From IMG/VR virus record IMGVR_UViG_3300044960_000368, positions 1-39,116 of that record: a stretch of 39,116 nucleotides of DNA. The stretch is one strand, 5' to 3'. How positions within the stretch are numbered: position 1 is the stretch's first letter; the number at the start of each line of letters is the position of its first letter. The position numbers and the translations under genes were made by a program. The stretch comes from a virus. Under the pieces are notes generated by a model. The model saw only the letters and a list, made by a program, of their open reading frames with translations, was not told the DNA's origin and searched no databases. Below, piece after piece: positions 23,921 through 29,026 of this stretch.

Positions 23921-24362
23921 GTTTCACTCCGGCAACACGGTGCTCTCGAAACATACGGTTCGCTCGACTCTTTCGGTGCTCTCGCATTCTGAGGCTCGCT
24001 TAAGCGGTGCGGTTCTCTCCCGCGGCTCGGCTCGCTCAGTACACACGGTTCGCTCCACATGCACGGCTCGCTCCCAGGTTTCGGTTCTCTCAGAAGGCGC
24101 AGCTCGCTCAACATGAACGGTTCTCTCACGTATCACGGCTCGCTCCTTGTTCGCGATTCTCTCAATGGCTGCGGCTCGCTCTTTCTTCCCGGCGCTCTCG
24201 CCCGTAGCGGCTCGCTCTCCTGAGACGGTTCTCTCTACACCCCAGGCTCGCTCGTAGGGAACGGTTCTCTCCCGATGCCAGGCTCGCTCTGACTTTCCGG
24301 TTCTCTCCGCGACTCCGGACTCGCTCACTGGCGACGGTTCTCTCTGCGAAGTCGGCTCGCTC
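23921..24362 (-). repeat. TIGR array: alternating 9-bp repeats with 9-bp spacers
   Basis: Read on the minus strand, two repeats alternate, type B GAGCGAGCC and type A GAGAGAACC, each followed by a unique 9-base spacer, so the full unit is 36 bases. Repeat starts (left plus coordinate) run from 24354 down through 24336, 24318, 24299, 24281 and then every 18 bases to 23939, with a decayed copy at 23921: 24 clear repeats plus one degenerate. The first lies four bases after the stop of the Nop-domain gene. The first spacers are GACTTCGCA, GTCGCCAGT, CGGAGTCGCG, GGAAAGTCA, TGGCATCGG, GTTCCCTAC; no two spacers are alike. Every spacer after an A repeat starts with G. One step (24299 to 24318) is 19 bases. 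The last five repeats are the most degenerate. The design matches tandem interspaced guide RNA arrays, whose transcripts are cut into 36-nt guides with two 9-nt spacers. Confidence 0.88.
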
Positions 24363-24366
24363 GGCG

Positions 24367-25185
24367 CTACTGCATCGGCCAGTTGGGCGGCCCGATGTAG
24401 TGCGCGTGCCCTTTGATCGCGATGACATAAGGCTTCGGCGGCGGCTCGCCGAACCTGAGTTCGAACATCACGTGATGAAAATGCGCCAGGAAAAGCTTGG
24501 TCGCATAGCGCTGCGCGCGCAGCTCGAGACGCGCGCGAGGCAGCCGCCCCGCTTCGTATTGCTTGCGCGCTTCTGTATCGGCCCCAAAACGCTTTGCCTT
24601 CAACGCCTCCGCAGCCTGTTCGGCATATGCGCCAGCCTCGTTGCGTGCAATCTCGAATTCCTTCCGCATTTTGTAGATCGCGCCGTAGAAAGCGTCGGGA
24701 CGGCCCGATATCTTCGTGAAGCTCTGGCCGATCTTCCATGCGATCAACTTCAACGCAGCATTCCACGGACGTCTCTGGCCGCGCTCCCAGCGGACAGTCG
24801 GATCGAGCCCGGCGAACCGCCAGATGTGACCGACGGTCGGAGCCTTTTCGATGTCGATGTGAGCGAGCAATCCTGCCGAGATCACCGGGCCAATGCCCTT
24901 CACGCTCATCAGCCAGGCACCCACCGGATGGGATTCGACATAGATGCCCAGCGTCTTGCGGATCTGCTGCTCGATGCGCTCATGACGCTTGGCCAGCCAT
25001 TCGACCATGGCGTGCGGAGCATTCTCCTGGATGCATGCGCGCAGCTGCGCGTGATCGCGAATGCGATCCTTCTGCATCTGGTAGTAGACCTTGACCAGGA
25101 ATGCAGCCTCGCGATCTCCGAGCGTCTTGCACGCCTCCTTGAGATCGCGACTGATGATCCATTCAGCATCCGTATCAGTCAGCAC
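24367..25185 (-). CDS. Nuclease-less Tas protein (Nop/IS110 C-terminal-like)
   Basis: This 272-residue protein probably binds guide RNAs from the adjacent array and directs them to DNA. Residues 1-85 are a charged helical domain. Residues 94-111 (SVKGIGPVISAGLLAHID) are a helix-hairpin-helix like that of IS110 transposase C-terminal domains, followed by VGHIWRFAGLDP (118-129), the RPWNAALKLIAWKIGQSFTK helix (139-158) and a C-terminal helix (RYATKLFLAHFHHVMFELRF). This region is related to Nop proteins in published comparisons of TIGR-Tas with IS110. I see no DEDD/RuvC or HNH motif, so it fits the nuclease-free class. The start is GTG 25185 behind GGAGGAAC; it overlaps the upstream gene by 11 bases. 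An automatic annotation would probably say IS110-family transposase. Confidence 0.83.
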   Translation of the reverse strand: MLTDTDAEWIISRDLKEACKTLGDREAAFLVKVYYQMQKDRIRDHAQLRACIQENAPHAMVEWLAKRHERIEQQIRKTLGIYVESHPVGAWLMSVKGIGPVISAGLLAHIDIEKAPTVGHIWRFAGLDPTVRWERGQRRPWNAALKLIAWKIGQSFTKISGRPDAFYGAIYKMRKEFEIARNEAGAYAEQAAEALKAKRFGADTEARKQYEAGRLPRARLELRAQRYATKLFLAHFHHVMFELRFGEPPPKPYVIAIKGHAHYIGPPNWPMQ

Positions 25186-25712: not shown

Positions 25713-25926
25713 GTTGCGCCTCCGTCGCCGCCCCCTGCAGCGCGCGCAGGAAGGCGTTGATGATGAGTTTCGTTTCGTCTTCGCGCGCCTCGCACGGACC
25801 ATGCAGATCGCCGTGCCGCGTCTCGTAGCACTCGCCCTCGCAGACGCACCACGCGCGCGCCGCCGCGCGAAGCGCCGCTCGCACGCGAGCGTTGTCGTCG
25901 GCCAGCCACTCAAGCAGCTCAGCCAT
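25696..25926 (-). CDS. Hypothetical 76-residue protein with cysteine cluster
   Basis: No family recognised. The protein (MAELLEWLADDNARVRAALR) carries CVCEGECYETRHGDLHGPCE, four Cys and two His in about 18 residues, which could bind zinc, then a helix (DETKLIINAFLRALQG). ATG 25926 overlaps the upstream stop by eight bases and has no clear ribosome site of its own; GTG 25944 is an alternative start. Confidence 0.6.
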   Translation of the reverse strand: MAELLEWLADDNARVRAALRAAARAWCVCEGECYETRHGDLHGPCEAREDETKLIINAFLRALQGAATEAQHDRAQ

Positions 25927-26431
25927 CGGCGTCAGCCGTCCCACCGGTCATGCGTGCCAGCCAGCGCTTTGCGACCAGCGCGACCGGCTCGGGCTTGATC
26001 GGTGCGTCCTCACGCAAGGTCTTCACGCGCTCTCGCGCTGCATGCTCAATGATCCCAAGAATCCCCAGTTCGTGCACGGCGCGGCGGCGAACGTCCATCG
26101 AGAGGTCGTTCGCCTTTTCTATGGCTGTGCTGATTGCGCGGGACGTGCGCCTGGCCGTGCGGGCGATGTGCTTGCGGGCGGTCGGGGCGACGACGGCCAC
26201 GGTGCGTTCGGCGTCGAGCCGCCGGTAGCCGACACCGCGCACGCTGGCGAAAACCGCCCCAGCTTCGCGCTCAGCCACACGACGGGCAGCCACGATAATG
26301 TGCCGACGCTTGCGGATGTCCCTGCCGATAGCAGCAGACATGGCGTCTAGCGTCACAGTCTCACCGATCGGGCATTCAAGCATCACGTCCAAGACGGCGC
26401 GGGTTTCAGCAGAGAGTTCAGTGATCAGCAT
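25919..26431 (-). CDS. Putative winged-helix regulator, first gene of the tas operon
   Basis: This 170-residue protein has an N-terminal domain (ITELSAETRAVLDVMLECPI, TVTLDAMSAAIGRDIRKRRH, IIVAARRVAEREAGAVFASV) ending in VRGVGYRRL, which resembles the wing of OmpR/PhoB-type DNA-binding domains. The C-terminal half is helical and basic (TARKHIARTARRTSRAIST). ATG 26431 follows AAGGAG. It is the first of five overlapping minus genes ending with tas, so it may regulate or simply accompany the system. Hairpin array 1 lies directly upstream. The DNA-binding role is by pattern only. Confidence 0.6.
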   Translation of the reverse strand: MLITELSAETRAVLDVMLECPIGETVTLDAMSAAIGRDIRKRRHIIVAARRVAEREAGAVFASVRGVGYRRLDAERTVAVVAPTARKHIARTARRTSRAISTAIEKANDLSMDVRRRAVHELGILGIIEHAARERVKTLREDAPIKPEPVALVAKRWLARMTGGTADADG

Positions 26432-26445
26432 GGTTACTCCTTCGA

Positions 26446-27411
26446 TTGGTGGAACGTTGCGTTGCGTTGCGGAGCGGGGCGATGCGAGGCGAAGCGGGGC
26501 GCTGCGCTGCGCTGCGCCGCGACGCGTTGCGATGCGGCGGGACCGCGCAAGGTGCCAGCCCCTCGCGGGGCTGGCCGTCGCGGTGCGACGCGGGGCGTGG
26601 CGCAGTGGTGCGGCGCGAGGCGCTGCGAGGCGTTGCGCCGTTGTGGTGCCGCTTGGCACCCCAGACCGTCCAAGCTTCGGGCGGTCGGGGGTGCCAGCCC
26701 CTCGCGGGGCTGGCCGTCGCGATGCGATGCGCTGCGGGGCGAAGCGGGGCGCCGCGCCGCGTAGCGCTGCGAAACGATGCGGGGCGGGGCGTCGTGGTGC
26801 TCATGGCACCTCGGACCGTCTGCACTCCAGGCGGTCGGAGGTGCCAGCCCCTCGCGGGGCTGGCCGTCGCGGTGCGATGCGCCGCGTGGCGGCGTGGGGC
26901 GCTGCGTTGCGAGGCGACGCGGAGCGGGGCGGGGCGCCGTGGTGCCCATGGCACCCCGAACCGTCTGCGTGCCAGGCGGTTGAGGGTGCCAGCCCCCGAA
27001 GGGGCTGGCCGTCGCGTCGAGTTGCGGTGCGGGGCGGTGCGGGGCGATGCGCGGCGATGCGAAGCGCTGAGGAGCGCTGCAGAGCGGAGCGCGGCGCCGT
27101 GGTGCGCATAGCACCTCGGACCGTCTGGACTCCCAGGCGGTCGAAGGTGCCAGCCCCCGAAGGGGCTGGCCGTCGCGTTGCGATGCGAGGCAGGGCGCGG
27201 CGCCGCGTGGCGGGGCGGGGCGCTGCGTTGCGACGCGGCGCGGAGCGGGGCGGCGCGCCGTGGTGCCCGTGGCACCCCAAACCGTCTGCGTGCCAGGCGG
27301 TCGAGGGTGCCAGCCCCTCGCGGGGCTGGCCGTTGCGGGGCGCGGCGGCGCGCTGCGTAGCGAGGCGTGGCGAAGCGGAGCGGCGCGCTGCGGAGCGTGG
27401 CGGCGCGACGC
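26446..27411. repeat. Hairpin/pentamer array 1 (five units plus a half unit)
   Basis: A 966-bp tract with no convincing gene. Each unit of about 150 bp has a run of GCGNN pentamers in which GCG is fixed and NN varies (80-110 bp), then hairpin 1 (about 20 pairs: GGCACC... with ...GGTGCC) and hairpin 2 (GCCAGCCCC, tetraloop, GGGGCTGGC). Full hairpin pairs start at 26655, 26805, 26950, 27111 and 27271; 26551-26576 has hairpin 2 only. Hairpin 1 varies with compensatory base changes, and hairpin 2 has loops TCGC or CGAA. All units point the same way. It lies between minus-strand genes, in the leader of the gene starting at 26431. Long open frames here are an artefact of a repeat nearly free of stop codons. 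Confidence 0.9.
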
Positions 27412-27412
27412 A

Positions 27413-28006
27413 TCAAGCCACCAGCGACCTGTTGTCGGTCCACACCAGCGACTTGAGCCTGAACCGGCCGTTGGTCCCGCCCTTCTCGGGCCGAAACCTG
27501 CCGATGCCGATGAACATTCCGGCAATCTCGACCATCTCCTTGAACACATCCTCCGTGATGATCGGATCCAAGATGAACACATCGAACGTGCTTTGCCAGG
27601 ACGGAATGATCGGGAACCGGCGCGGCACGCGCTTGCCGCTGCCGCGCACGCCGTCGGCGTTCGCGCTGATGGTCACGCACTGAACCTCGTCCGGATTCAC
27701 GTTGAGCGCAGGATCTTCAGCGATCATCAACCCGGCTACAAATTTCATCGTCCAGGTCGCCTTGCCTTGGCCCGGGATCTGCCTCTTGCTGTACTTTGCC
27801 GCAGCTGCAATCGCCTGGTGCAGTCCGTGCGCAGGGATCACCACTACCCTGCGACCGTCGCGCTCGGCGACGTTCATCTTCGCGCGCCAGGTGCGCGCGT
27901 CATAGGCGTCACGGCTTTCGCCTTCGAGCATCGGCTCGTCGTGCTGCCGCGATTGCGAATACGGGCTCAGGCTTTCGAGCGTCAGGCGAGCTTGGGTGAA
28001 CCTCAT
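27413..28006 (-). CDS. Conserved-looking protein between the hairpin arrays
   Basis: This 197-residue protein starts at ATG 28006 behind AGGAG and is flanked on both sides by the hairpin/pentamer arrays. Segments include SPYSQSRQHDEPMLEGES, VVIPAHGLHQAIAAAAKYSK, GKATWTMKFVAGLMI and a glycine-rich end GIGRFRPEKGGTNGRFRL. It resembles phage proteins of unknown role that share the G-RF-P-GRF ending; the glycine-rich loop recalls RAMP/RRM-fold RNA-binding proteins, but I cannot establish that. Codon use is normal for the window, unlike the flanking repeats. Confidence 0.7.
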   Translation of the reverse strand: MRFTQARLTLESLSPYSQSRQHDEPMLEGESRDAYDARTWRAKMNVAERDGRRVVVIPAHGLHQAIAAAAKYSKRQIPGQGKATWTMKFVAGLMIAEDPALNVNPDEVQCVTISANADGVRGSGKRVPRRFPIIPSWQSTFDVFILDPIITEDVFKEMVEIAGMFIGIGRFRPEKGGTNGRFRLKSLVWTDNRSLVA

Positions 28007-28019
28007 GCTATCTCCTATC

Positions 28020-29026
28020 GATTGTGAGGCCTTGCGTTGCGTTGCGTAGCGGAGCGGCGCGTTGCGATGCGTTGCATCGCGGCGCGGCGCGGCGCTTGGT
28101 GCCCATGGCACCTCGGACCGTCTGCACTCCAGGCGGTCGGAGGTGCCAGCCCCTCGCGGAGCTGGCCGAAGCGTTGAGATGCGAGGAGACGCGCGGCGTT
28201 GCGTGGCGTTGCGACGCGTCGCAATGCGTCGCGTTGCGACGCGGCGCTTGGTGCGCATGGCACCTCGGACCGTCCGGGGCCCAGGCGGTCGGAGGTGCCA
28301 GCCCCTCGCGGGGCTGGCCGTTGCGGTGAGATGCGGTGCGAAGCGCAGCGCTGCGCTGCGTAGCGAGGCGCGGCGTGGCGGCGCTTGGTGCGCATGGCAC
28401 CCCAGACCGTCCAAGCTTCGGGCGGTCGAAGGTGCCAGCCCCTCGCGGGGCTGACCGTTGCGTTGCGTTGCGACGCGGTGCGAGGCGGGGCGACGCGGGG
28501 CATAGCGGGGCGACGCGACGCGTTGCGGCGCGGCGCCGTGGTGCGCACGGCACCTCGGACCGTCTGGATTCCCAGGCGGTCGGAGGTGCCAGCCCCTCGC
28601 GGAGCTGGCCGTTGCGGAGCGGCGCGGAGCGATGCGGCGCGGTGCGAGGCGAAGCGGGGCGAAGCGCAGCGACGCGCAGCGCGGTGGTGCTCATGGCACC
28701 TCGGACCGTCTGCACTCCAGGCGGTCGGAGGTGCCAGCCCCTCGCGGGGCTGACCGTTGCGTTGCGTTGCGGCGCGGAGCACGGCGTGGCGCCGCGCTGC
28801 GGAGCGACGCGACGCGATGCGGCGCGGAGCAGTGCAATGCGATGCGTCGCGACGCGTGGCGGTGCGGAGCGGAGCGACGCGCGGTGGTGCCGATGGCACC
28901 TCGGACCGTCCGGGGCCCAGGCGGTCGGAGGTGCCAGCCCCTCGCGGAGCTGGCCGTTGCGTTGCGTTGCGGGGCGAAGCACAGCGCTGCGCTGCACTGC
29001 GCTGCGACGCGCTGCGCGGCGGAGTG
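28020..29026. repeat. Hairpin/pentamer array 2 (six units)
   Basis: A second tract of about 1 kb with the same unit and orientation as array 1. Hairpin pairs start at 28107, 28259, 28396, 28549, 28695 and 28895 (spacing 137-200 bp), separated by GCGNN pentamer runs. Inner hairpin versions are shared with array 1: loop AAGCTTC at 26655 and 28396; CACTC at 26805, 28107 and 28695; ACTC/ATTC at 27111 and 28549; GGC at 28259 and 28895. Some hairpin-2 copies carry GGAGCTGGC or GGGGCTGACC, which weakens one pair. It occupies the gap between the minus genes starting at 28006 and ending at 29049. I see no gene in it. Confidence 0.9.

Follow-up and report, generated by a model that had tools for sequence, protein, structure and literature searches.

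A probable variant of the VIPR system with C[G/U]C pentamer arrays in a clade of phages

VIPR (Viral Interference Programmable Repeat), described in a 2026 preprint (PMC13142463), is composed of the protein Vipr, vap genes and vrRNAs, which consist of 9 to 16 YNNGG repeats followed by a structured 3' tail and are matched to double-stranded DNA under a rule that skips one base (PMC13142463). By the definition given there, Vipr is a small RAMP protein with an RRM core, a G-loop and a thumb; the repeats follow GGY/NN "or a related consensus"; the vrRNAs are approximately 100 nt long, are bound by Vipr and end in a nearly invariant tail; a vap gene encodes a DNA-interacting accessory; and the systems occur mainly in phages and proviruses (PMC13142463). 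Another RNA-guided system, TIGR-Tas, is characterized by two alternating repeats of 8 to 12 nt, 9-nt spacers, a Nop/IS110-like Tas protein and guides that are 36-nt tigRNAs (PMC12045711).

We analyzed an IMG/VR virus record of 39,116 bases (the window, meaning the whole stretch of DNA under study), which carries terminase, portal, helicase and primase genes, and the locus described below is thus phage borne. The original prediction, made from the letters of this DNA, had been of twin pentamer arrays around one gene, with eleven full units and one half unit in a single orientation, and this anatomy was borne out. GCGNN runs were present at 26457-27407 and 28032-29021, on either side of one 197-aa gene on the minus strand; they were confined to one strand, the longest comprised 16 perfect units, and no further run occurred in the rest of the 39,116-base window. 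There were 14 repeat tracts in total, and the hairpins that split them made up 11 complete pairs and a half pair, exactly the predicted count. The order proposed for the parts of a unit was right in joining GCG tracts to a pair of hairpins but wrong as to strand: in the RNA sense each unit reads 5'-(NNCGC)n, short hairpin, long hairpin-3', so that the fixed triplet is CGC and the short hairpin precedes the long one. Two tail-less tracts stop at the ribosome-binding sites of vipr and vap, 26 nt before the start codons. The features are as follows, in window coordinates; except where marked, tracts come from array detection and tails from tail alignment and folding.

27413..28006, minus strand: vipr, 197 aa, RAMP/Cas7-like (profile match to 36pp_D; model fold)
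25919..26431, minus strand: vap1-like accessory gene, 170 aa, N-terminal winged helix and long helices (profile A2; model)
28957..29021, minus strand: guide tract 1 (NNCGC repeats)
28885..28956, minus strand: 3' tail 1, short then long hairpin
28757..28881, minus strand: guide tract 2, long, with one interruption, possibly two guides
28685..28756, minus strand: 3' tail 2
28612..28681, minus strand: guide tract 3, NN code with a candidate Peptidase_M15 target (array detection; target scan)
28539..28611, minus strand: 3' tail 3
28458..28532, minus strand: guide tract 4
28386..28457, minus strand: 3' tail 4
28321..28380, minus strand: guide tract 5
28249..28320, minus strand: 3' tail 5
28169..28243, minus strand: guide tract 6
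28097..28168, minus strand: 3' tail 6
28032..28091, minus strand: tract without a tail, ends 26 nt upstream of the vipr start codon
27333..27407, minus strand: guide tract 7, beginning directly after the vipr stop codon
27261..27332, minus strand: 3' tail 7
27173..27257, minus strand: guide tract 8
27100..27172, minus strand: 3' tail 8
27012..27106, minus strand: guide tract 9
26940..27011, minus strand: 3' tail 9
26867..26936, minus strand: guide tract 10
26795..26866, minus strand: 3' tail 10
26717..26791, minus strand: guide tract 11
26644..26716, minus strand: 3' tail 11
26578..26637, minus strand: guide tract 12
26539..26579, minus strand: half tail, short hairpin only (hairpin search)
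26457..26536, minus strand: tract without a tail, ends 26 nt upstream of the vap start codon
23939..24362: TIGR-like array (repeat pattern)
24370..25185, minus strand: Tas-like (IS110/Nop) gene (TasH, 9mty and PF02371 matches)

The NN positions were free, as had been proposed, with an interior entropy of 3.8 to 3.9 of 4 bits over 314 arrays. The array detector returned no arrays in 330 shuffled neighborhoods, 36 distant 3-kb windows of relatives or 210 bacterial 3-kb windows, and the arrays are therefore not a product of chance. Neither are they an artifact of assembly, a doubt that the original prediction had raised, since contigs from many separate metagenomes show the same anatomy. Rfam yielded one subthreshold miRNA-like match and nothing else, hence no hammerhead ribozyme at an E value of ≤1. 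A search of viral_contigs for an exact copy of one window tail found none, the window's own record possibly being absent from that collection.

The gene enclosed by the arrays encodes a relative of Vipr. Profile A1, built from 50 relatives, matched a single PDB sequence, 36pp_D, "SUSP1 Vipr protein" (E = 1.5e-8). The AlphaFold model of the window protein (pLDDT 91) had a type VII CRISPR chain as its top Foldseek match (E = 1.1e-7), and alignment of the model with VIA-align gave a Z score of 12.6 and 4.7 Å over 164 residues; the modeled fold is that of Cas7/Csm3. The invariant residues near the C terminus are G163, G167, G169, R170, R172, G180 and R181. The match to 36pp_D and the modeled fold together identify the product as the small RAMP protein of a VIPR system. 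Profile A2, derived from the window vap, matched the gene adjoining vipr in SUSP1 (E = 6e-8) and in LESphi2 (E = 8.6e-7) in a small set of open reading frames. The Vap model (pLDDT 92) has an N-terminal winged helix, and a Foldseek search with the whole model returned weak matches, none at an E value of ≤0.001. By homology to the SUSP1 and LESphi2 neighbors, the gene corresponds to the vap accessory gene of VIPR, and its product is predicted to bind DNA.

A protein search with the window vipr returned 15 viral loci at 67 to 94% identity; in nearly all of them, arrays surround this gene. Scanning for ten GCG triplets at five-base spacing returned 101 viral stretches; 100 loci were analyzed from this set, and 89 were kept after 11 had been dropped for low NN entropy. 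Although these 89 loci with diverse NN had been found through GCGNN alone, vipr or vap was present in 74 (vap in 58), and the CGC strand of the array was the sense strand of vipr in 66 of the 67 vipr-bearing loci from the scan. Neither gene was recognized in the analyzed stretch of the other 15 (e.g., L043, L076 and L102), possibly because of truncation or a more distant Vipr. Since most of the 50 Viprs in our tree had been collected through GCG arrays, loci found through the protein motif only offer a fairer test of linkage. Searching for the motif GIGRFRP-x2-GG-x-NGRF of Vipr with a DNA pattern identified 66 such viral loci; 63 of them had C[G/T]C arrays at a distance of up to 1.5 kb on the vipr-sense strand, and none (0/66) had any on the opposite strand. 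The flanks are truncated in the remaining three loci (L248, L250 and L283), the last of which has a shorter GCG run. Where one phage is represented by near-duplicate records (e.g., L012/L029), each is counted separately in all these locus counts. The Vipr profile found nothing in 12 bacterial genomes or in the 369 genomes of the class of the Rubrivivax locus (G001), empty results that carry little weight unless backed by a known positive; the 385 genomes of the class of the Paracoccus locus (G005) gave 3 matches, all distant and all with GGY arrays. No match was found in plasmids with the Vipr of L065.

We aligned 20 tails (11 from the window and 9 from relatives) and folded the alignment on both strands. 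For the CGC strand, RNAalifold gave 19 pairs, 4 of them changed on both sides, at -37.2 kcal/mol; for the GCG strand it gave 22 pairs, 4 changed on both sides, at -30.6 kcal/mol and with several broken pairs. Over the 20 tails, G-U pairs in the short hairpin numbered 10 on the CGC strand, against 0 on the GCG strand, and the loops of this hairpin included GCGA (11 tails), UUCG (4) and GAAA (1), stable tetraloops being found only on the CGC strand; the corresponding counts of stable tetraloops in a wider set were 19 and 1. Some observations were contrary. At stem positions 36-49, 17 of the 20 tails have C-A, a combination that would form a pair on the GCG strand only, and a looser hairpin count, which includes array sequence, gave 120 G-U pairs for the GCG strand versus 43 for the CGC strand and 14 tetraloops to 4 in favor of the CGC strand. 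The tail covariation, the G-U pairs and the GNRA/UUCG loops, with which the orientation in SUSP1 and LESphi2 agrees, place the RNA on the vipr-sense strand, tract first and then tail, the order known from vrRNAs. The earlier suggestion of a family of structured RNAs is supported by this covariation, and the tail is structured and nearly invariant, as in VIPR.

Across 4,762 positions in the 314 arrays, the fixed triplet was CGC in 90.4%, CUC in 3.5% and CAC in 2.5%. The triplet is mostly CUC in L281, on the vipr-sense strand of an array 0.5 to 0.75 kb from the vipr motif, and positions 1100 to 4200 of L061 hold a mixture of CGC and CUC on the same strand; the triplet of the clade is therefore written C[G/U]C. 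The tandem pentanucleotides with hypervariable NN fit the VIPR definition, in which CGC may be one form of the "related consensus", the GGY form being absent here. In SUSP1, the Vipr profile matched one gene with GGY arrays on its sense strand, one upstream, approximately 110 nt from vipr, and two found downstream (PMC13142463 reports three). LESphi2 has the same layout, with GGY arrays on the vipr-sense strand, and HY02, Medea1 and MakoManhole likewise have GGY arrays on that strand and no C[G/T]C array. The Vipr gene is annotated merely as a hypothetical protein in LESphi2 (L240), Medea1 (L296) and MakoManhole (L297). A tblastn search with the LESphi2 Vipr returned 134 phage records. The same search of phages with the window and L285 Viprs gave only a weak match to LESphi2, and that with the L078 Vipr gave none, so that few if any of the cultured phages searched belong to the C[G/U]C clade.

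In a tree of 50 Viprs of the clade and 5 from GGY systems, the two groups parted on one branch with 100/100 support; the GGY rows are long-branched, and the root serves for drawing only. The fixed triplet and the Vipr protein change together, in one change on the Vipr tree with full support. The locus shares with the SUSP1 and P. fulva clades of VIPR the Vipr RAMP, a vap1-type gene, pentanucleotide tracts with hypervariable NN, a structured 3' tail, arrays on the vipr-sense strand and its encoding by phages. It differs from characterized VIPR in its fixed triplet, where CGC (C[G/U]C) stands in place of GGY; in its tail, which has two hairpins with GNRA/UUCG loops, whereas that of SUSP1 is described as including a pseudoknot; and in its layout of 14 tandem tracts on both sides of vipr with tail-less tracts at start codons. 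Homology, anatomy and linkage make the window locus a VIPR system; its triplet, tail and array layout make it a variant. The claim that no described element has this build was nearly right: one description was found, the VIPR preprint, the main text of which mentions neither TIGR nor a CGC triplet (PMC13142463).

The NN code of the guides is hypervariable and turns over between close relatives, with 7 similar pairs among 263 guides; constraint was seen at the tail-junction end only, where the NN beside the tail is mostly AA. No skip-rule excess was found when 293 guides were compared with 2.43 Mb of collected loci at skips of 0 to 4 with two shuffled controls, and an earlier pass with 263 guides also gave no excess. 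A pattern joining one window guide (28612-28681) and one L093 guide had 1 viral match, and the 10-dinucleotide core of the same window guide matched 2 viral contigs, both in the same Peptidase_M15 gene (L292:7359-7709; L293 near 5696). These matches are in frame, the skipped bases are wobble positions, and mismatches flank the 10-NN core. As a candidate target of this guide, the Peptidase_M15 gene is suggestive at most, and the matches could be due to chance. Scans of viral_contigs with two further window guides gave 0 matches, and tblastn of decoded guide peptides in phages gave none. Codon positions 1-2 explained NN usage best among six codon-position models (KL, 0.076 versus 0.103 for the next), whereas the base composition of NN itself fitted better still (KL, 0.043 versus 0.076). 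The codon-position analysis thus only mildly favors targets read at codon positions 1-2, with "23 antisense" close.

Approximately 0.7 kb from the VIPR locus, the region at 23939-24362 comprises 24 repeats of nine bases, which alternate between two forms and are separated by spacers of the same length, and 22 of the 23 repeat steps are 18 nt, the remaining one being 19 nt. The gene at 24370-25185 on the minus strand matched a TasH chain (E = 2.3e-10), 9mty (E = 8.3e-15) and PF02371 (E = 4.6e-6). By its repeats, spacers and Tas-like gene, 23939-25185 fits TIGR-Tas and is predicted to be such a system. The pairing of VIPR with TIGR-Tas recurs in the contigs of L009/L032 and L010/L041, and L062 has a TIGR-like array, a Tas homologue and a vap gene with one array. 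TIGR-Tas resembles the VIPR locus in being a phage-borne, RNA-guided array system and differs in its unrelated Nop/IS110-like protein and in its 9-nt spacers between two alternating repeats. Class 1 CRISPR-Cas (Cas7/Csm3) has in common with the locus the protein fold and the storage of guides as an array but possesses long repeats and spacers, whereas the window has pentamers. A class 1 CRISPR array, with repeats of 25 to 36 nt and spacers of similar size, was rejected, the units here being pentamer tracts with hairpin tails, and no cas genes were recognized adjoining the locus. The RNA-binding protein TRAP recognizes a fixed triplet every five RNA nucleotides in a regulatory leader, without a hypervariable code; the spacing is like that of the window arrays, but the protein is different. 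A TRAP-like RNA-binding ring, considered for the five-base period, was dropped because the gene proved to be Vipr.

As a whole, the locus is very probably a phage-encoded VIPR system with vrRNA-like guides, a reading that we hold with high confidence. The strand encoding vipr and vap would be transcribed, and each unit would give rise to a guide made of an NNCGC tract and a two-hairpin 3' tail. Each pentamer of the tract would be occupied by one Vipr subunit of the predicted Cas7 fold, which would grip the CGC triplet; the target DNA would be recognized by the NN pairs, with a single base passed over between one pair and the next. With the aid of the winged-helix Vap, the resulting complex may keep genes of rival phages or prophages from being transcribed. 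The RNA processing, the subunit stoichiometry, the 1-nt skip rule, the binding of double-stranded DNA and the silencing in this scheme follow by analogy from the work on SUSP1.

Other readings of the arrays were weighed against this one. The pentamer runs might be a double-stranded DNA platform, such as an operator or a centromere-like or packaging element, bound by the neighboring winged-helix protein. The five-base period and the usual proximity of a predicted DNA-binding protein (vap, with its winged-helix model, in 58/89 array loci) would suit such a platform. However, the covariation, G-U pairs and GNRA/UUCG loops of the tails are those of RNA; the array strand is fixed relative to vipr, 63 to 0; the NN positions are hypervariable and turn over between close relatives; and the fold of Vipr is that of RNA-binding RAMPs. 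We consider a DNA platform very unlikely, and the original prediction's helix-face protein platform and its centromere-like or packaging element received no support, since the arrays go with the Vipr gene and the tails show RNA covariation. The same prediction had also offered decoys, that is, anti-defense RNAs titrating a host RNA-binding protein such as a CRISPR effector. Structured repeat RNAs in a phage beside a Cas7-like protein would be compatible with decoys, but a decoy needs conserved sequence, whereas NN is near-uniform, and the phage brings its own cognate Vipr. Guide RNAs explain these observations better, and a decoy role is even more improbable than a DNA platform. Least credible, to the point of being practically negligible, is low-complexity expansion or an assembly artifact. 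Bacterial (GCGNN)12 matches (at least 116 loci) do look like simple repeats, none of those listed having an NN entropy above 2.2 bits, but the phage arrays combine 3.8 to 3.9 bits of NN entropy with intervening tails, a fixed gene context and recurrence in many independent contigs.

The tail-less tracts at the starts of vipr and vap might act as leaders through which Vipr represses its own synthesis, a role that would be added to that of guides rather than replace it. Among 332 arrays, 65 lie directly before vipr and 65 directly before vap, mostly 10 to 35 nt from the start codon, in contrast to the distance of the upstream array in SUSP1. Tail-less tracts abutting the ribosome-binding sites recur in this arrangement throughout the clade. 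The tail-less tracts may, however, simply be degenerate guides, and we regard the leader role as less likely than not. Returning to the VIPR reading, we tentatively propose, at somewhat less than even chances, that a clade of uncultivated phages rewrote the fixed letters of VIPR from GGY to C[G/U]C together with Vipr, that some of its members pair the system with TIGR-Tas in one island, giving a single phage two unrelated RNA-guided weapons, and that tail-less tracts let Vipr control its own operon.

It has been proposed that VIPR was a forerunner of the class 1 CRISPR systems. The triplet differs while the architecture is constant, which suggests that the protein dictates the scaffold letters and that these are exchangeable, and natural pairs of Viprs offer a way to find the residues that read the triplet. 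With many guides from wild phages, and with VIPR beside TIGR-Tas, the idea of "inter-phage warfare" becomes testable outside E. coli and Pseudomonas.
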